This document shows, in pieces, positions 32,842 through 50,272 of a DNA stretch of 64,000 nt. Origin of the DNA: Cryoendolithus antarcticus (lineage: Eukaryota; Ascomycota; Dothideomycetes; Cladosporiales; Cladosporiaceae); contig NAJO01000045.1 of assembly GCA_002077065.1 (NCBI GenBank), positions 248,001 to 312,000 of the forward strand, in the 5' to 3' direction. Below the pieces are notes generated by a model. The model was not told the origin of the DNA, made no database searches, and was given only the letters and a program-made list of their open reading frames with translations. The stretch's first letter is position 1, and the number at the start of each line of letters is the position of its first letter. The translations under genes and the position numbers were made by a program.

Positions 32842-33047
32842 CCGTGCAGCTCACCCAGTGTATAGCCGTGCTGCCACAAACCATTATTTGAGCGCCTTAC
32901 TGCATCAGGTTCATAGAGATTCCTATTGTCTCATCAGTCCATATATTACACATGCCTTCAATAGCTCGTGCGTGAGGTCCTTCGAGTAACACCCCCTTCA
33001 TGAACATCGGATCACTTCGCTAAACATATTCACGTCCATCTCTTACC

Positions 33048-37964: not shown

Positions 37965-38102
37965 GGCGATTTCTTCCACCACCTGCGCCTTGCCTATTGC
38001 ATGAAGGCTGAGCTGGAACAAGAGATCGCGTTCATCCTGAGCACTCTTGTTCAGTGGGACACTCACCCGCATCCAGCAGATCAGAACCTGCTGTATCGCA
38101 CA

Positions 38103-39447
38103 TCATTCCTCCGCACTGGAAGTCTCGTCGTCAAGCGATTCTTGATCTAGGACTCCACCACAAGACTCCCAAGGACAGCGTATCCTATGGAGATACATGT
38201 CTTTCGGCAGATCGATCCCGGCTCCGTAGGACGAACAGAGTTTGCTCATGTTGGAAGGACAGAATTTGTCGTCACACTTGTAGCGCACTACAGTTGCAGT
38301 GCGCTCCGTCGCATATTCGAGCGTGATCTTGTACGCTAGCATCGGCTTCTTGGCCAACGCTTGGTGGACCATCCTGAATTTGTCTGGGATGCTGAAAGCT
38401 TTCGGGAATTTGGCAGGAACACAATTGATCAGCATGGCATGCAGACTGTCCAGTTCGTCGCTACTCGCATCCTCGACCTCATCAATCATGAGCGGAATAC
38501 CAAGGTCGATGTTCGCACCTTCCATGGTGATGCGGAACCGTTTCTCTGCAAGAGCCTTGAGAGAATGCATAAGATATTTGTCGGCCAGACGGTAGACCGC
38601 CACGAGCAGCTTGGTATCTTGCGTGAATCCGTCTGCACCTGTGCGATCGGCGGGGCGGATGAATTCGCGACCGTATAGATACTCGAGAAGCGCGTTGACA
38701 GCTGTCGGATCATCGTCCGGTAATTTGATAACGTTGGACGTCGCCTCCTAGTAAGCATGTTAGCGACACTTGGATCAAGACGCTGTACAATCATGCGAGT
38801 GGCAATAAGAGCGGACCGCTCAGCGATTGTCTGTGCCGGAGAATGCTAATATATGCAACCTCGTGACAGCGCAAACAGCACCGTCTGGTGGACAAGAGTC
38901 GAGCTTGCGTTCTCAGGACCTCTCCTGGGCTAAACGAGGCGGATTCGTTATCGCGGTGCGATATGTCATAGCAGTGTCGGTAGAGATGACCCCTCGAGTG
39001 GTCCGCTTCGCTTGACAGGGTTCACATACCTCAAAGCCGCCATCACAGGCCTTCGCGAAGAAATCGCATCCAGCACATACGACTATCTTATGAACCTTCC
39101 ACTTGCGCTCGCCTACTACGACAGTCAGATCCGCACATCTGCCATCGGCGAAGCGACTATTGCCAGTCAGTGGATATCCGCAACGATGAACGTAAGCAAT
39201 TTGGCACCCATACCGCTTGAGCCCTTAACGGGCCACAGTCAGAGGCGCATCGGATGCTTCGCAAGTCTCGTCGGTGTGTGACATCGTGACATTTCGCCGG
39301 GTGAAATATGATAGTGTCAGAAGTGTATGAGGAAGTTGGAGAGGGGGAGGTGGCACGAATCGACGCTGCATGTGCTACGGTCGATTGAGATCCGCATGTG
39401 ATGGTGATGTTGGCATGTGATACTGACAGGCGTATATGAGTCTTCAC
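38103..39447 (-). CDS. BTB/POZ domain protein, tandem copy 1
   Basis: The model has exons 39447-39230, 39156-39030 (127 nt) and 38747-38103, totalling 329 residues, with introns of 73 and 282 nt. The core exon encodes FADGRCADLTVVVGERKWKV and HKIVVCAGCDFFAKACDGGF, the BTB N-half. The third exon continues EATSNVIKLPDDDPTAVNAL and LEYLYGREF, then VAVYRLADKYLM. The C-terminus has two C-x4-C pairs (CDDKFC and CPWESC) that could bind zinc. Exon 1 is uncertain: the phase-compatible frame is low-information, whereas a nicer start (MSHTDETCEASDAPLTVA) is one base out of phase and hits TAA. Related BTB proteins dimerise or link Cullin-3 to targets; the function here is unknown. Confidence 0.72.
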
Positions 39448-39585
39448 TCTGCGGCATTCCCAAGCTGCACTTGATCGCCATTACGGAAGCCGGATTGCCT
39501 AGGTCTTGGATGTACTGGTGCCTTACAGGGAAACGCCTGCCTTGCTTAACGCAGGCTGTATCGTCACGAGGCCATCGCTCCTAGT

Positions 39586-40492
39586 TTAGTGCGTAGCATT
39601 GGATTTAGCCCATGTCGCCTTCGTCTTACAAACCATACCACTGAGACAGGTGATCACGGTGTGCTCTTCCACACCGTCTCCGACTTCGAGGACGAGGTGC
39701 TTGGGACCGCAAGTTGCGCAGGTGCAGCGAAACCTCGAGACCTTGGGACGGCTTGACGCCCAGTTCGATGCAGCCTTCGCAGCGAATCCAGGATTCGCAG
39801 CAGCAGCGACGCGGAACTCTGGATATCTCTCGGGTTCTCCGAAGAGCTTCAGAAAGTTGTCCCGCACGAGCGCGTCCAGTATGTCCTGAAAGGCTGGGAC
39901 CGGCTCAATAGAATGGCCATATAGGACATCTATAGCGATGGCAAGGTCCGCATCGTTCGTATCGAGCATCTTTCCGGCGATGGTTTTCTTTGCAATAACG
40001 CCGAGCCGCTTGACTAGGTACTTGTCGGCAAGCTGGTATACGCTGACACAGAGCTCGAGTGTACCTCTGAAGTCAGCGGGACACTCGAACCCGCACTTGT
40101 AGAGAAATTGCAGCCAGGCATTCACGGCGCCAGGCAGGTCATCGTGCAGTCGGATCGTGTCAGACTTCGCCTCCTGTAGCATGGTCAGATCTAGATGACA
40201 GCAGAGGTTGCTATGGGGTCTAGTGTACCTTGAATGAACCTTCGCACGCCTTCTGAAAGTAGTCGCAGCTTGCGCAGACAATGATCATGTGGACCTTCCA
40301 CTTCCTGTCGCCTGCCTCGATGGTGAGATCTGCGTGCTTACCACTTGCGAAGGCACTGCAGTATGGATCAGCGCCGGAACCACAACGCCAGCTTGTGGGC
40401 GAGACTAACCCGTTTACGCCTCGCAACAGGTCTCTGACGGCTACATCGCTGTCGCTGTCCTCAGAGTCAGACAGATAGGCGTTGGGAGTCAT
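39586..40492 (-). CDS. BTB/POZ domain protein, tandem copy 2
   Basis: Exons 40492-40410, 40355-40229 (127 nt) and 40173-39586 give 265 residues. The first intron (GTTAGT...CTGCAG, 54 nt) is in frame without a stop. It is inferred because it reproduces the phase and the 127-nt core exon of copies 1, 3 and 4. The N-terminus is acidic (MTPNAYLSDSEDSDSD). The BTB core is SGKHADLTIEAGDRKWKVH through CDYFQKACEGSFK, then EAKSDTIRLHDDLPGAVNAW, LQFLYKCGF and VYQLADKYLVKRL. The C-terminus carries CTCATC and later CLSGMVC, a possible metal site different from copy 1. Confidence 0.85.
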
Positions 40493-40919
40493 GCTGTGAG
40501 TCTTGCTTCTGTAGTGCCCTCTCGCTCGTGTATGAAATGAGTGTATGTAATGGATTCTTGTAATGAAAGTGCTGATCGCTTGCATGGGAAGGAACGACCG
40601 CGAGAACCGTAGTCACATCTTCACTCGTGCGTGGCTCAATCCACGTGTTACTGCAGACTCCATGACTCCTCACGATACAGAAGCACTGCTCGTCGCTCTG
40701 CATGGGTGATTGTTTCTTGATCAAGAGCATAAGCCGGCACGAGGCGGTAGCTGGTGACCATCTGCCTATCGAAAGGTTTTCGTCACAGCGAGTGTGAACT
40801 GTCTGTAGGCTGGCCCTGGCCCACACACGCCTCTGTAGTATGGTCATCATCTCCTCGGACTCGCTCTACCTTTCCTCATCCACTTCTCCTCGTCATGAAA
40901 CGCAACTTTGCACGCACGC
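40493..40919. other. Spacer between BTB copies 2 and 3
   Basis: This is the promoter of copy 2 and the 3' flank of copy 3. No other gene or repeat is seen. Confidence 0.5.
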
Positions 40920-41817
40920 CTATGCTTCGCGTTTGTGATCTGCCCAAACAGTAGCCAATCTCTGAGATCCACAACTTGGACAGTATAGATTGCGAGGCTC
41001 CGTTCGGGAGATGTCAATAGCAAAAGTATAGCCACACCCCTTGTACGGACAGACGACCGCAGTAAGGTCGATCGTGTTGTTGAAGAGAGACATGCCAGTG
41101 CACAAGTCGGCAAGGAAACCTGGAACGCGGCGGACGACTTCGTGGAAGTCGGGGTGCGTCTCCGGTTCGCGCAGGAGGACAGCCATATGCTTACGGCCGA
41201 TGTCCAGTAGTGTAGTCTTCAGTCTGCTCATGCTGTCCGGGCCATGTGCGTAAATCAGGTCAACAGCGACGGCGAAGTCAGGCTGATCCCAGCGCCTCCA
41301 CATGCATGCTTCAAATTTTTTCGCAGCGAGGTCGCAGAGGAGCGAAAGCATGTATTGCTCGGCAAGCTTGATGACATGGATGTGGCAGGACACAACATCA
41401 TTGCCATCGGCGGAGTAGATGCCGGTGTAAAGAAATTGAAGCATTGCGTGCACGGCGGCTGGATCGACATCTTTGAATGTGTATGCGTTGTCCGTGTCCT
41501 CCTGTGAACATGTCAGTGCTGAATCATGTGGCACTTGACTGAATAGCGCGTACCTTGAATCCGCCTTCGAATGCTTTCGCGACGACCTCGATCTGTGGGA
41601 GGACGATCGCCTTGTGGACCTTCCACTCCCGGCTACCGCACTTGACCACGAGGTCGGAGCACTGGGCATTGATGAACAGACTGGCAAGATCGTCAGTCAA
41701 GCTGTCTGATCTCAGCCGCGCAGGCAATATTGTTTACCTCCTCATGGCAGCCAACAGAGAGCTGTACACAGCTGGCACGTCGATCTCGTCGGCCGTTGAT
41801 GTGGTGTTCCCATCCAT
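40920..41817 (-). CDS. BTB/POZ domain protein, tandem copy 3, with zinc-ribbon-like tail
   Basis: Exons 41817-41738, 41680-41554 (127 nt) and 41501-40920 give 262 residues, with introns of 57 and 52 nt. The short first exon is MDGNTTSTADEIDVPAVYSS plus a few residues and ends in phase 2. The core encodes CSDLVVKCGSREWKVHKAIV and EVVAKAFEGGFK. The third exon begins EDTDNAYTFKDVDPAAVHAM and includes LQFLYTGIYSADG and IKLAEQYMLSLLCDLAAKKF. The C-terminus has CPYKGC, then 18 residues later CPSC, a C-x4-C...C-x2-C arrangement suggesting a small zinc-binding fold. It is the clearest full-length copy of the array. Confidence 0.88.
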
Positions 41818-42084
41818 AGCAAGTGAAGTCGAGAAAAGTCCGGCGATGGCAGTGTAATGTGAGCGAAGTTAGAGGCAAACATACCTGTTGCGGCAATAAT
41901 TTGCTAGGCTGAGGTGCTAGACTGATGTCCCAGTCTGATGTGGACGTGACTGGAAAGAGCGATGTGTACTGGGCGAGGCTTCCGTGCACAGCCTGACTTG
42001 CTTCAGTCGCGATTTCCCGCGGACCGGAGGTTCTCATGAGGCAGAACACAAGGGTTGTAGTCGTTCGTCGTTGATTATCGAGTG

Positions 42085-43024
42085 CTATAGAATCCTCGAC
42101 AGACCTCCAGTGCGAGCGCAGTTTTGGCCACTTGTGCCATATCGCGACAATGCTGTAAAGCTAATGGTCCGCAAGAAGGTCACCCTAATCAAACAGTCCA
42201 TAGTGCGCTGTAGTTGACGAGTCGGACATGTCAGACCCGGAGTCAGTGATTGATGGTATCCCTGGCCCTGCTTCTGAGCGACTTTTAGCGCCACCGCTGC
42301 CGCAAGCCCACCATCGATCTCGACGAGAGCGGTGAATTGCTCGGCGTTCCGACCCCGTGTCACAGCATGCGCCGCATCTTCGGCGAGAACACGCACGACC
42401 ATCTCCCTCATAAGGTCGTCCCTGCCAACGGTCGAGTTGTAGATGCTGATGACGATCTCTCGAAACTCGTCGGTATCCCACTTGGTCTCGGCGAGACATC
42501 TGAGCTCTGTCGCAGATAATGTCTGGAGGCCTTCGACGAAGCAGCGTTGCGCAATGGAGTAAACCTTGAGGTGGAAGTGCATGTCCCAGGTTCTAGTCTT
42601 GGGCTTCTTCTCCTTCCCCTTTCCCTTTCCGACTTCATTCTTCTCAAGCTTGGTCGTGCTGGGCCGTTCGTAGCTGGGATAGTTGATCAAGACCTCAACC
42701 ACTTCCACATCATCTTCTGAGAGGTCGATCTTGTTCTCTTGCGACTCCTGTTGTGTGTCAGCGTCATCTCATACTTTGTCGTCCAATTAGAGTATGCCTA
42801 CTCTAAATCTGCCCTCCACAGCCGCTTCGAAGAACGCCGACTGCGAGCACACCACGGCTTTGTGAACGTTGAACGTCCTGTCGTGGCAGATCACCTTGAA
42901 ATCGGTCCACTTCCCGCTAGTGAGTAAACTGCGTGATATCAGCAGTTGTCCATGAGAAGAGGACTGCGTCTCGGCGGACGTACCTTCCCACGCCTGCGGC
43001 AAGCCCTTCGTATCTGTCTGTCAT
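42085..43024 (-). CDS. BTB/POZ domain protein, tandem copy 4
   Basis: Exons 43024-42984, 42928-42802 (127 nt) and 42747-42085 give about 276 residues, with introns of 55 and 54 nt. The first exon is only 13 codons (MTDRYEGLAAGVG). The core is TSGKWTDFKVICHDRTFNVH, then KAVVCSQSAFFEAAVEGRFR. The third exon begins ESQENKIDLSEDDVEVVEVL and contains a Lys-rich insert (KGKGKEKKPK) in place of the usual loop, then KVYSIAQRCFVEGLQTLS. No Cys pairs follow. The last 45 residues look unlike protein, so a 3' intron leading to a frame ending MSDSSTTAHYGLFD is possible. Confidence 0.78.
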
Positions 43025-43383
43025 GGCCCTGTCGATGTCGAAATGTGTTGTGGAGGTATGAGATGTCGATTACCTCAGATTTGAGGTTTCAGCATCGATG
43101 TTGTGGCACTTTGGTGGTCAAGAGTGCTAGTGAAATGTAATGAAACACAATCGTCGAGTGAATTGCATGGAAAGTACGACCCGCTTCCACTTCACTCCAC
43201 CCCTTGTGTGCGCCTTATCTCCACACAGGTAGACCGTCCAAGTTGACTGGTAGTCTTCCCCGCGGCATGGCAAATGCTCACACTACCTGACCCATCTACC
43301 CGTAGATGGTGGTGCTGTTGCGCGGATCGAGCCTGATGTCGTGAATTCCTCACTTGCTAACATTGCCGCAAAGGAAGTCCCCT
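43025..43383. other. Spacer between BTB copies 4 and 5
   Basis: This is the promoter of copy 4 and the 3' flank of copy 5. No other feature is seen. Confidence 0.5.
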
Positions 43384-44206
43384 TCAAGTTGCAGCCAGTT
43401 TGGCGAGGCTTGACGGCTTCATGCGCAATATCACCTTCAGCTTCTTGGTGGGTGGCGAATCACTGCCGTCATGCTTGACCTCCGCTTTATCGTCCCTCAT
43501 CGAATCAGCGTCTCTCTTGATGCCAGCAGCTTTGTTCCTCGTCGTTGTGAACTCACCCTCCGCTGCCTTTGCCTCTACCTCCACTGGCAATGAGAGCAGC
43601 CTCCTGACCTTCTTCACAAGCGCCGCGTTGAGGTCGGCAGCGAAGGTCCCGTATTTCTGCACCGTTGCAACGAACTCTCGCGAATGGTTTGCCGTGTCAT
43701 AAAGCTCAACGGCACAATCTGCTACGACTTGTACCAGCTTCTTCCTGATCGCGACTGTAGCATCATCCTTATCCTCATACGCACGTTGGATTGCATGAAC
43801 AAACCCGACGTGATCCCAGGACACGGCGGCGCTCCGTCCAAACTTGAACAGAGCAGTCGCCATGACTTGCGTGAGGTCATAGTCGAAGGCCAATGCGTAG
43901 ACGTTGGCATGGTAGCGTGCACTGAATCCCCGTTTGGGCTGGGGGACTAGAGCGTAATTGCCAGTGTATAGACACTGTAACAGGGCCTTCACCACCAATG
44001 CATCATGCTGAATGGTGAGCTCACCGGTAGTGCATGCCTTAGTAGGGAGTCAGCTTCGGATCACCGCGATGTTGGCTGCGAGCACTCACTTCGATCGCAG
44101 CGCGAAGTTTGCAAGAGTGCGAAGAAAGTACCGATCTGTGAACCGGAAAGGACTCGGTCTGCGAACACCAGGCCGACGTGATACTGAAATCGGCGAATTG
44201 GTCCAT
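43384..44206 (-). CDS. BTB/POZ domain protein, tandem copy 5, with a basic NLS-like tail
   Basis: Exons 44206-44090 and 44037-43384 join over a 52-nt intron (GTGAGT...CTACTAAG) to give 256 residues. The BTB N-half is the most diverged (MDQFADFSITSAWCSQTESF, PVHRSVLSSHSCKLRAAIE). It continues after the splice with TIQHDALVVKALLQCLYTGN and VYALAFDYDLTQVMAT. An acceptor at the homologous place (CAG before 44218) would give a 130-nt core exon, one codon longer than the sister copies, but I found no ATG-bearing first exon. The tail is Lys-rich with PPTKKLKVI, a monopartite nuclear-localisation pattern, and has no Cys pairs. Confidence 0.8.
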
Positions 44207-45526
44207 TGTGATGAAAGTACTGTGAGTGATCAATCGCAATACTCATATCGTGAATCAAGAGGAATCTTACCTCTCACCAAAATCAGAACTTGCCGTGACG
44301 TCGCGGTCGAAGTAGCAAAATGTCTCGGTCAGTCTGTGGGTGAGCTCAGAGGGATCGAAGGAAACCGTTCACCAGCGTGCTACGAATTCAAAGAGCGTAA
44401 GGTATTGATGACTTCCAAGGACAACATTTGCAGGGGACGACGGAGACTTCACTGTGACTTTTCAGTGCAGCTTCACTCACTACTCGTACTCACGTTCACT
44501 TCAGCAGCATCAGAAAGCCCTTCGACACTTGGCAGCACGAGACAGAAGTCTTTCCGCCGTCGTGCGCGCTCAATGGCTACGCTCCCAACACGATGCATAA
44601 CGTCCAGGTTTGTCACGGCAGGGCACGCGAAGAATGAGCCCGCAAGCCGACGTCGAGGAACAGTACGCGCACCGAACTCTCTCCGATTCTTCTTGTTGGA
44701 CCCGGTCACCATGGCTCGGAGGCAGACTCGTTGCCTGTGCAGTGGAGGGACCACGCGCTGACGTTATCGCTCTGTGTTGGCCACACGGGCAATAGACTGG
44801 AAATGTGGGATCGCGCGAAGCATCAGCCAATGTGACTGGACGGCACGAAGGTGCGCAATGTCATCACGAGCCAGAAGAACCGTAGAGGAGTCTCGATCTT
44901 GCAGTACGGTACAGTAATAAAACGTGGAGGCGCATGGATAGTCAGCTGGGAGATTAAATGTGCTTCGAACGACTACGGGTCCTCCCGAACGAAGACCCTT
45001 GGAACTGTGAAACGCCCTTCCACTCCACGCGCCTTGTCTCATCTCTGCCGTGTCTCCCTGATCTCCACCACAAACGATCTTTCCGCACCCGTCCGAGACC
45101 GTACTGTAGCAACTACAGACAAGCACGCCATTGTGTGTTGCGCGCTTTGGTCGTTGAAGTTGAGCAAGCATCGGGCTGGAAGCAACGACCCCTTTGGCTC
45201 CTCCCCTCCACGCGACCCGCGCAAGCCTTTCCCGGAACTTCGTGCGACACACAGCCAGGCGCTGCAAATACAGTACACAGCACGAGCACACAGTGCATAC
45301 CTACTCCTGAACGCGGCATCTGACAGTCACGAGCCATTGCGCGCATTACCTGGACCTTCATCGCTCATCACCACCACACTCGTTTGACGCGCTCCTACAC
45401 TAGACCGGACGACCACATTCGCTGCGACTCCACGACAAGTCACCCTCGATCCTCACACACTTCCTGGACTGGCCACATTGATTCATGCCCACGTACGGAA
45501 GTCTTAGCTCACCCTCACTGCACAAG
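44207..45526. other. Intergenic between the BTB array and SHO1
   Basis: About 1.3 kb contains no supported gene. Frames on both strands up to 175 codons are basic and low-information. I searched for another BTB copy and saw only donor- and acceptor-like sites just upstream of copy 5 (about 44218-44270) without a start codon. The C-rich last 300 bases suit the SHO1 leader. Confidence 0.5.
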
Positions 45527-46568
45527 ATGGACAACTACAATAGCCGGTATGGTGGCGGCAGCGGAGCGAAGAAGTTCAGCCTTGGGCACATATTTGGAGA
45601 TGCGTTTGCATTGGCCACTATAGGCATAGCGACGGTAAGACTTGCCAGCTGTAGTCTCAAGGCGATGGGCAGACACTGACAACATGCGCAGTGCGGATGG
45701 CTCATTGCCTTCGTGAGCTCGATCATCGCCGCTATTGGCGACAGCTTCCCAAACTACTCCTGGTGGGCGCTTGTCTACATGTTCTTCGTGATCATTGGCG
45801 TGATAGTCAGCGTTGCGAGCGACTCCGTGTACACATATCACGTGGCAATTGTCGGCTTCATGGCAGCTGGACTTGTCTTTACGACATCGTCGGTGAACTC
45901 GCTGATCTACAATTCGCAACCGGCGAAAGAGGCAGCAGCAGCAGGTTTCATCTTGCTGTCCATGGTGTCGGTGAGTTGATTTCATCGTTCGAGCTGTCTG
46001 ACAGGCCACTGACAATGCGCAGATCGTCTGGATCTTCTATTACGGCTCCCAACCCACAGCCTCGCACCGCCAAACCCTCGACTCCTTCGCCCTCCACAAG
46101 GACCGCGCTCCCTCCCGCAACAGCCGCCACATGACCCAGTCCTACCGCCCTGACACAATTCACTCCTCCGCCGCAAACCAGCAACAACAAGCCCAACCTC
46201 AAATGTACAACTCTAATCAACTCGCTGGCTTCGAGACCGCCTCGCCCGTCACAGGTTTCCCCGGCGGCGCCGCAGGCGCACAAAACCGCGCATCGGCTTC
46301 AGCATTCCCAGCTCCAGTATCGCAGACCGCACCTACGACTGCACCACCTACGGGCGTCGCGGATAGTACCATGACGCAGCCGGCGGAGTACCCGTACAGG
46401 GCGAAGGCGATTTACAGCTATGAGGCGAACCCGGATGATGCGAATGAGATTTCGTTCACGAAGCATGAAATATTGGAGGTTAGTGATGTTAGTGGACGGT
46501 GGTGGCAGGCGAAGAAGGAAAATGGGGAGACGGGGATCGCGCCGAGTAACTATCTCATTCTGCTCTAA
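45527..46568 (+). CDS. sho1: Sho1 osmosensor of the HOG MAP kinase pathway
   Basis: Exons 45527-45634, 45692-45970 and 46023-46568 join over introns of 57 and 52 nt to give 310 residues. Four closely spaced membrane helices fill residues 25-145 ([49 protein letters not shown] and [17 protein letters not shown]). A Gln/Ala/Pro-rich linker follows. A C-terminal SH3 domain has [39 protein letters not shown] and ends YLILL. This layout is unique to Sho1, which binds Pbs2 through the SH3 domain at the plasma membrane. The start has good context (AAGATGG). Confidence 0.96.
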
Positions 46569-48037: not shown

Positions 48038-49333
48038 TCAGCTGCCCAGGAGCTCGTTAGCTACCTGCGATATCAGCAACGCCGCAGCGTTCGCCTCCGG
48101 CGGCAGATTCGCCAAAGTTCTCGCCGTCTTATCGGGATGCCATCGCGCGGCTTCTTTGCGCATCCTGCTAATGAATGCAGGTCTGTTGCTCGCAAATAGA
48201 TTGCCAGGCATGCGCCGGAAGAAGTCTCGCACAGCATCTGCAGTGACCGAAGCCCTGATCCCTTGCCTTGTAGGCCACATCGGCAACTTCCGAAGTTCCT
48301 CAGCAGTAAGCTGCGTTTCAGCATACTGGATGTGGTCGAATGCCGCTATGTAGCGAGTCCAAGGGTCCTGTGAAGTCCGAGCCTTCCGCTCACGGGCCTC
48401 GCGCGTCTTCCTCTCGCGCTCGCTGCGAAGCTGCTCTGCCTTCTCTTTCGCCGTCCGCTCGGCCTCGCGCTCTGCACGCGCTCTGGCCTTTGCTTCACAC
48501 TCTGCTCGCTCGCGCGCTGCCTGCCGAAGAGCCTCCTTACGACGAGATTCTGCCGCTGAACGAGTCACCTCCGCGAGACGAGCGACCTCTGAAAGAGCAC
48601 GTGCTTCTGCTTCCCGCTCCGCACGCTCACGGGCAGCTTGTCGTAACGCCTCTCGCCGACGTTCATCGGCTGCCGCGCGTGCAGCCTCCGCAAGCCGAGC
48701 AGCGGCGGCCACGCGAGCACATTCGGCACGGCGTCGGTCGCGCAGAATGCGTGCCTGCTGTGGGGATTGCGCTTCATCTTGCCAAGCTTGAGCTCCTTCG
48801 TAGGTCGTTGAGGTACGCGGTTCGTACTTGTTGCGCAGGGCGATGAGGCCAGCGAGTTGTTGACGCAAGACAAGAATGTCGGCGCTGTCGTTGTCGGTCC
48901 AGTCATTCGTCGGAGCGGCATCGCTGCTGTTGTCCCAGCCGTGTGCAGAGTTGATGTCGTCGTCATCGTCATCGCTGCTGTAGTACTCTCCGCTCTGATC
49001 ACCATTCCATTTGGCATACGGAGCGAGGCGCTGGAACCACTGCTCAGCCACCTGCTTTGCTTGATCCTGGTGCCATCGTCGACACAGTGTGTATCCAGCC
49101 AAGGACAGGAGAAGGCGCTTGATCTCGAACCACTGTAGGCCGGGCTGAGAGAGCTCGTCGACGACGCTCTGCGCCGAAGCAAGATTGTGTCTTGCTATAG
49201 CCACGCGGCAGCGTCGATGCTTCGATGGAGCGTGGCCGACGCAGGAACTAGTCTTGGTGTCGGGATTAATGAGGCCGAGGACATCGCTGAGGTTTCGAGC
49301 GCGGGCAGAGGGAGTAGACACGAGAAGAGACAT
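48038..49333 (-). CDS. Coiled-coil protein with a degenerate J-domain-like C-terminus
   Basis: A single exon of 431 residues. The N-terminal 115 residues are helical, followed by an acidic stretch (SSDDDDDDIN). Residues about 190-330 are a Glu/Arg/Ala coiled coil holding a 39-residue repeat present twice (REALRQAARERAEREAEARA and KEALRQAARERAECEAKARA). The end, FISRMRKEAARWHPDKTART, followed by LLISQVANELLG, resembles helix II, the HPD loop and helix III of a J domain but has an insertion and no clear helix I. Similar tails occur in NFKBIL1-like proteins. An Hsp70 partner role is possible but unproven. Confidence 0.72.
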   Translation of the reverse strand: MSLLVSTPSARARNLSDVLGLINPDTKTSSCVGHAPSKHRRCRVAIARHNLASAQSVVDELSQPGLQWFEIKRLLLSLAGYTLCRRWHQDQAKQVAEQWFQRLAPYAKWNGDQSGEYYSSDDDDDDINSAHGWDNSSDAAPTNDWTDNDSADILVLRQQLAGLIALRNKYEPRTSTTYEGAQAWQDEAQSPQQARILRDRRRAECARVAAAARLAEAARAAADERRREALRQAARERAEREAEARALSEVARLAEVTRSAAESRRKEALRQAARERAECEAKARARAEREAERTAKEKAEQLRSERERKTREARERKARTSQDPWTRYIAAFDHIQYAETQLTAEELRKLPMWPTRQGIRASVTADAVRDFFRRMPGNLFASNRPAFISRMRKEAARWHPDKTARTLANLPPEANAAALLISQVANELLGS

Positions 49334-50272
49334 TGTAAGGGGAAGGATTTTGAATAGACTTACATCAACAGTTCAGGAGACGATGCGTTCGAGAGAAGCT
49401 ATATACCCTTCACTTCATCTCAGGGAACGAGGCTGAGCGCCCTTGCTGCGACACAGCTATTGCTAGCGCCCGGGCAGAAGTCAGGCAGCTTGCTGAGACC
49501 CAGCAATAGTTCACAGTGCAGTTGGCAGAGTCTAGTAGCTGCCAGCTGCCAGATCCAAACCATAGTCGTGTGCGCCTCAGGTCGGGTAGTGGCCACGTTG
49601 TGTGTCCCCACAGCATCAGAGTTGGGTGAAGCACACGTCTGCCAGCACTTTCCACACCTTCCTCCAAAAGTGTGAGTGGCTATGGTGAGACGATAGATGA
49701 GGTCTGAGGCATGGCATGCGCCGAAACGCGCCAGGGGGAAGCTGTGCCGTGCGTCTACCGCGAGCACTGCCCGTCTTGACCACGAGTGTGAGGGGCTGCC
49801 ACTGGCCGAGAGTCGAGCCTACGGGTCTGAGTGAGACGAGGAAGCATGAAGTAGCTTCAACGACAGAATATGCTTGAGTATGATAAGCGGAGGACAGATC
49901 CGCGTCAACCATCGCGAGTTCCTGCTTCACAGTCAACCTTACGATCTAACGGCAGTTCATATGACTGAGTCCGGATCGAGGAATGATAGGTGTGGCGCGG
50001 AGGGGACTCGCGTAGATTGCATACTGCAAGATGTAGAGTAGTCGTGCATCGAGAAGCGCCAGGGGTGAGATTGCTGTGCCGCACGCATGCATGCAGCTTC
50101 GCCTTTCTCAGTCTTTCGTTTTGGGGTTCCTCGGACAGGGCGAGTGACTTGCAACAGCTTGGAAGCTTCGTGCATGCAGAATGTAATGGGGAGATCTCGG
50201 TGGAGCAAGAGCATAGGAGACGGTGTGAGGGTGACGGATTGAGGTGGTAGAGTAATACATGTACCTCTTCTT
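49334..50272. other. Intergenic, no gene seen
   Basis: About 0.9 kb lies between the coiled-coil gene promoter and the Nup82-like 3' end. Frames up to 115 codons lack motifs. Confidence 0.5.

Follow-up and report, generated by a model that had tools for sequence, protein, structure and literature searches.

Several described systems come close to the genes presented here. Human SPOP is a BTB protein which serves as an adaptor of CUL3, and a fungal BTB protein, BTB1 (NCU04838) of Neurospora crassa, has been reported to bind Cul3 (PMC2996332). Expansion of BTB genes has likewise been reported, with orthogroup OG0005782 being among the expanded groups of psychrophilic Dothideomycetes, a set that includes Cryoendolithus antarcticus (PMC11412873), and BTB/POZ among the expanded families of Ochroconis mirabilis (PMC4738786). 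Our analysis of a 64,000-nucleotide stretch of the genome of C. antarcticus, an Antarctic rock fungus placed in the Cladosporiaceae (contig NAJO01000045.1, positions 248,001 to 312,000; hereafter 'the window', its contig being labelled C90) concerns a tandem array of five BTB genes, copies 1 to 5 (c1-c5). We suggest, at a probability of roughly 0.55, that the array represents a locally clustered part of a large ascomycete BTB gene type, that it encodes CUL3 adaptors and evolves by birth and death, and that its counterparts on a homeologous contig mostly predate the split of the two subgenomes. The genes of the array are real and of an ordinary kind, their evolutionary setting is unusual, and the excess of age between homeologs is the point worth following.

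A sequence-only reading of the window had proposed five consecutive minus-strand BTB genes, and gene modelling confirmed them at positions 38103-44206, with all five proteins passing the Pfam cut-off for BTB (PF00651; 24.4-51.0 bits versus 20.5, c1 being given without exon 1). The architecture read for c1-c4 stood as well: a first exon ending in phase 2, a core exon of exactly 127 nucleotides (nt) with AG before and GT after, a second intron in phase 0, and a third exon opening with Glu (EAT, EAK, EDT and ESQ, respectively). The features, in window positions, are:

38103-39284, minus strand: c1; exons 39284-39214 (with an in-frame TAA), 39156-39030 (127 nt) and 38747-38103; probable pseudogene
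39586-40492, minus strand: c2; exons 40492-40410, 40355-40229 (127 nt) and 40173-39586
40920-41817, minus strand: c3; exons 41817-41738, 41680-41554 (127 nt) and 41501-40920; paired cysteines at the C-terminus; placed in the tree with BTB genes of contigs C75 and C128
42085-43024, minus strand: c4; exons 43024-42984, 42928-42802 (127 nt) and 42747-42085, the 3' end being placed at an in-frame stop
43384-44206, minus strand: c5; exons 44206-44090 and 44037-43384; BTB 24.4 bits; fourfold-site difference 17/55, flank-like
44220-44270, minus strand: candidate intron in the 5' untranslated region (5'UTR) of c5; GT..AG, 51 nt, at the family's first-intron place
38001-44900, no strand: divergence island relative to homeologous contig C124; unalignable or 68-76% identity in bins of 500 base pairs (bp), flank bins mostly 78-95%

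Two gene models were refined. The first exon that fits c1 (71 nt, phase 2) contains an in-frame TAA which had been missed, and since this exon and the intron following it (57 nt) equal in length those of an intact relative on C124, c1 is most plausibly a broken gene and probably a pseudogene. A scan for GTA/GTG donors within 35-260 nt upstream yielded two alternative ATG-led first exons, followed by introns measuring 200 and 222 nt. Intron 2 of c1 (39029-38748) measures 282 nt versus 52-55 nt in c2-c4, that is, it holds ∼225 nt of extra sequence relative to the other copies. Copy c5, which had been said to keep the second intron position, indeed retains the phase-0 intron (44089-44038); at the first-intron place, both c5 and its C124 homeolog have a GT...AG stretch, of 51 nt and 52 nt, respectively, which stops 13 nt short of the ATG, and intron 1 may thus be kept as a 5'UTR intron.

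The shared layout had been taken to suggest local duplication. In the 47.0-Mb genome (149 contigs), BTB loci were found by Pfam and a core-exon query and then scanned with a core profile, locus counts outside the array being lower bounds as the genome search scores best candidates. A 127-nt stretch bounded by AG and GT near the profile boundaries occurs in 7 of the 10 loci of the array and C124 (for 255 other dinucleotide pairs, the mean is 0.13 of 10 and the maximum 2) and in at least 10 of 38 other loci scoring at least 13, for which the other 255 pairs average 0.69 and the chance control is weaker: the pair CT/GC reaches 8 of 38, probably on account of conserved codons. Among the 17 best non-array loci (score at least 40), the exon has 127 nt in nine, 130 nt in two and other lengths in three, and is absent from three. 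For the ten non-array 127-nt loci, the automatic models, in which acceptors are picked by profile fit, give a second intron of 51-62 nt in eight and a Glu-opening next exon in seven, while the complete set of AG, 127-nt exon, phase-0 GT and Glu-opening next exon is found in four of the five array copies. Because BTB genes of other contigs possess the exon too, the layout fails as a mark of local duplication, and the 127-nt exon was rejected as a hallmark of the array. Judged from these gene models, the layout is older than the cluster and spread genome-wide among BTB genes; tandem genes may share exon lengths without having arisen by local duplication. Searching titles and abstracts, we found no publication describing genes of this 127-nt type, which is not to claim that none is in print.

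The genome is duplicated, and contig C124 carries a homeologous array. We take Rachicladosporium antarcticum and C. antarcticus to be one species. The genome of R. antarcticum CCFEE 5527 has been reported to comprise 47.4 Mb and 18,781 genes (PMC5502844), and a genome duplication suggested for R. antarcticum (PMC12560822) fits the collinear contig pairs observed here. Over the stretch compared (50001-90000), C124 runs collinear with 22.95-62.5 kb of the window; outside the island, the bin at 33001 has 64% identity and 48.0-50.0 kb is largely unaligned. The C124 array consists of six units:

C124 unit 1: c5', a 117-nt first exon, then a premature stop
C124 unit 2: c4', open
C124 unit 3: remnant, a c3-like first exon running into a c2-like gene tail
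C124 unit 4: c1a, open
C124 unit 5: c1b, with two in-frame stops
C124 unit 6: c1c, open, with a core exon of 124 nt

Five units on C90, one of them broken, thus face six on C124, three of which are broken or truncated; c5 and the broken copy from C124:67924 onwards are probably true homeologs. The cluster evolves by birth and death, with copies gained, fused and broken. The C. antarcticus protein B0A48_17758 (P0005; L021 1283-3033, C124) matches c1a at 98% over 68% of the query and combines c1a and a piece of the broken c1b; the public annotation of the C124 array thus contains a fusion.

Fourfold sites were counted where the first two codon bases agree, which avoids path averaging. Differences between homeologs amount to 79/142 for c1, c2 and c4 together, to 17/55 for c5 and to 803/2465 for 15 flanking open reading frames (ORFs; Fisher p 4.7e-8), five further ORFs of the set used for synonymous divergence (dS) being left out of this count; three pairs of cullin homeologs show 82/297, 91/290 and 107/262. 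NG86 dS is 1.57 for c4, 1.75 for c1/c1c and 1.42 for the c2 tail versus 0.51 for the c5 tail, and lies at 0.29-0.81 in 20 of 21 flanking ORFs. The ratio of nonsynonymous to synonymous divergence (dN/dS) between homeologs is 0.31 (c4), 0.25 (c1/c1c), 0.36 (c2 tail) and 0.49 (c5 tail), c1/c1a and c1a/c1c being saturated and hence yielding no ratio; among the 21 flanking ORFs, 15 do not exceed 0.15 and six, some of which are perhaps not genes, lie at 0.22-0.43. The diversifying pressure that had been proposed is not shown by these ratios, and pervasive positive selection was rejected, no pair with a ratio reaching a dN/dS of 1.

The exceptional flanking ORF, at 48041-49372 on the minus strand (dS 2.34), forms another divergence island, at a distance of 4 kb from the array. 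This 444-amino acid (aa) frame has no Pfam match, is 43% identical to its C124 homeolog (fourfold sites 57/94; with it, the flank total becomes 860/2559) and, beyond itself and that homeolog, has no matches in the genome at an E-value of 0.001. Between both islands lies an SH3-domain gene (46002-46565, plus strand) which is 99.4% identical to its homeolog and which, we presume, resembles the osmosensor SHO1.

The excess recurs in every other pair of the 127-nt type that was counted: 36/59 and 28/54 for C79/C85, 30/57 and 10/14 for C79/C97, and 33/57 and 31/41 for C75 versus two C128 loci, where in the pairs with 28/54, 30/57 and 33/57 one partner has no exact 127-nt exon in the automatic models. 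Homeology is not established for C79/C97, C75/C128 and the pair C81/C83 introduced below. Further clusters of this type with high divergence between contigs are located at C79:179-182 kb/C85:364-367 kb and C79:255-273 kb/C97:237-250 kb, and at C79/C85 the adjoining ORFs of 849 and 452 aa have a dS of 0.2 and 0.52 versus 1.34 and 1.46 for the BTB frames. Among 11 other BTB pairs, nine are normal at 0.10-0.45 (17/90, 6/62, 14/80, 98/289, 116/256, 107/240, 39/99, 35/188 and 26/101), and two show an excess, namely C57/C113 (16/26) and C81/C83 (23/41; 39% identical and perhaps not homeologs). The pair C57:966.8 kb/C113:144.4 kb, of another BTB type, combines its excess with a 184-bp flank of 88% identity; the excess thus extends beyond the 127-nt type, and the idea that it is exclusive to that type was dropped.

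The proposal of old, strongly diverged BTB genes standing in tandem is supported. A tree of 42 rows retained 28 of the 33 loci modelled and 14 of the 17 proteins fetched (left out: C124_67915, C97_237863, C103_15818, C59_352145, C65_640578, P0005, P0013 and P0014). It groups c1 with c2 (100/99), c3 with genes of C75 and C128 (100/98), and c4 with its own orthologs (100/98), the branch of c5 being very long. A single clade of c1-c4 with their orthologs, as the sequence-only reading would have it, was rejected by the approximately unbiased (AU) test (p 0.0037), as was c1+c2+c3, a group chosen post hoc from the tree (p 0.0028). Separate old families, which had been named as the outcome speaking against local duplication, are therefore found in part: the cluster is drawn from more than one old BTB lineage, as shown for c3. 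As to lineage specificity, also proposed, the matches listed for c2, c3 and a nine-protein alignment include close orthologs from no other fungi than Rachicladosporium sp. CCFEE 5018 and Oleoguttula sp. CCFEE 5521; the wider family is also present in Septoria, Gaeumannomyces, Ophiocordyceps and Penicillium. In CCFEE 5018, B0A51_01996, 01997 and 01998, adjacent as judged from their locus tags, are relatives of c3, c2 and c1a, in array order; 01996 is 53% identical to C90 c3, and 01997 (over a 119-residue tail) and 01998 are 85% and 81% identical to C124 versus 51% and 48% to C90. B0A51_01482 joins c4'-like and c1a-like parts, each ∼95% identical to C124, and may be another fusion. If 01996-01998 is the counterpart of the C90 array, then the C90 array would be the odd one.

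As regards function, the fold of an ortholog shows the BTB fold followed by 3-box/BACK-like helices, and its match to SPOP extends through the helical extension (178 residues, 15% identity). Among solved structures, the protein P0004 matches KLHL11 best by sequence (E 0.0005). A CUL3-type gene is present in the same genome: among solved chains, those of Cullin-3 are nearest to the cullin encoded on C72 (E 1e-107), followed by Cullin-4A (4e-79), and the partner of this cullin on C106 is 97% identical. The ortholog fold and the CUL3-type gene make the substrate-adaptor role previously suggested plausible, and the array proteins are probably SPOP-like BTB proteins acting as CUL3 adaptors. A stretch of paired cysteines at the C-terminus of three of the five copies may bind zinc. 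The protein P0006 from Pleomassaria siparia (470 aa) has, by eye, two BTB-like units per chain. The array proteins, built from a variable N-terminus, a BTB domain split by two old introns and a 3-box/BACK-like helical extension as in SPOP and KLHL proteins, would most likely dimerise via BTB and dock on CUL3, with the fast-changing C-terminal part selecting substrates for ubiquitylation. The excess fourfold divergence suggests that most genes at matching places of both homeologous contigs diverged before the genome halves split, and the survival of different old duplicates on each side would be the simplest cause.

A number of observations weigh against this combined reading of CUL3 adaptors and differential survival. 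Neither MATH domain nor Kelch repeats were matched by Pfam in the five proteins (E up to 10, where the HMMER filters drop most matches above 0.1); the cysteine pattern is missing in c4, c5 and the c2 ortholog P0001, and the cysteine-rich tail is of low confidence in both structure models. The array proteins might instead be other BTB scaffolds, that is, oligomerising cofactors of transcription or chromatin, which we consider rather unlikely given that Pfam finds no DNA-binding domain in them and that the SPOP match continues through the helical extension; the ZBTB chains in the structure listing are BTB-only pieces, which could not show a match there. As to history, a local clade of c1+c2+c4, likewise chosen post hoc, was not rejected (AU p 0.288). 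Moreover, the consecutive genes 01997 and 01998 of CCFEE 5018 are C124-like and not C90-like, for which differential loss needs further losses, and such loss must hit neighbouring genes in parallel with their order kept, where replacement of the whole block would be simpler. Introgression, by which the C90 block would have come from a more distant relative via hybridisation and replaced a C124-like array, agrees with the divergence of a contiguous block c1-c4 between flanks and a c5 that are not divergent (for c5, at fourfold sites), and with the C124-like matches for c1, c2 and c4 in CCFEE 5018, c3 being untypable. It would, however, require several introgressions to explain unlinked clusters with the same excess (C79/C85, C79/C97), and we regard it as quite unlikely.

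The island of excess neutral divergence between alignable flanks, its recurrence in the other pairs of the 127-nt type and the C124-like proteins of CCFEE 5018 (B0A51_01482, 01997, 01998) could also be expected of balanced recognition haplotypes, the alleles of a non-self recognition locus then predating both the species and the subgenome split in the manner of the Aspergillus fumigatus het genes, whose trans-species alleles reportedly leave footprints a few hundred bases wide (PMC11138114). It is through this excess that the self/non-self role put forward in the sequence-only reading may still be considered. Because 2 of 11 other BTB pairs show the excess, the haplotype reading lost weight, and it is very doubtful: an unrelated frame shares the excess, homeology is in question for three of the pairs, dN/dS stays below 0.5 in all four pairs for which a ratio was obtained, several copies are broken, and in a single genome alleles and paralogs are not separable. 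By Pfam, HET, NACHT and other known incompatibility domains are absent, only BTB and sub-cut-off matches to other families being seen, and a literature search combining BTB domain and heterokaryon incompatibility returned one co-occurrence. It is a long shot, too, that the 127-nt-exon BTB clusters in general are recognition loci at which BTB ubiquitin-ligase adaptors persist as deeply diverged trans-species haplotypes, two of them locked into each cluster by hybridisation or duplication. Finally, decay or hypermutation could produce high divergence without great age, in line with the broken copies on both contigs and a dN/dS above that of most flanking ORFs. Yet fourfold sites are raised too, except in c5, whose partner is broken; a hypermutable region is not favoured, as the fourfold divergence of c5, within that very region, resembles that of the flanks. 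Repeat-induced point mutation left no sign either in TA/AT (0.59 in the array versus 0.60-0.64 in the flanks; 0.69 versus 0.68-0.70 on C124) or in transitions (30/79 versus 393/803), and a rate effect appears highly unlikely. We favour a birth-and-death cluster of CUL3 adaptors with counterparts mostly older than the subgenome split.

When compared with described systems, the array shares with the A. fumigatus het genes a narrow region of very old divergence, but differs in that the text consulted names no BTB gene (PMC11138114) and that the array is known from one genome. If the excess were to reflect old haplotypes and not differential loss, BTB adaptors would join the small set of gene types at fungal recognition loci. 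The BTB expansions of OG0005782 and O. mirabilis are alike as expansions, their members being compared by description only; N. crassa BTB1 is similarly set beside the array by description, as a fungal BTB protein. From SPOP, the array proteins differ by lacking, according to Pfam, the MATH domain, by the cysteine-rich tail in three of five copies and by the low identity given above. The BTB-BACK-Kelch proteins KLHL11 and KBTBD2 differ from the array proteins, which at ∼260 residues are without Kelch repeats by Pfam, but resemble them in the BTB domain and the start of the helical region.

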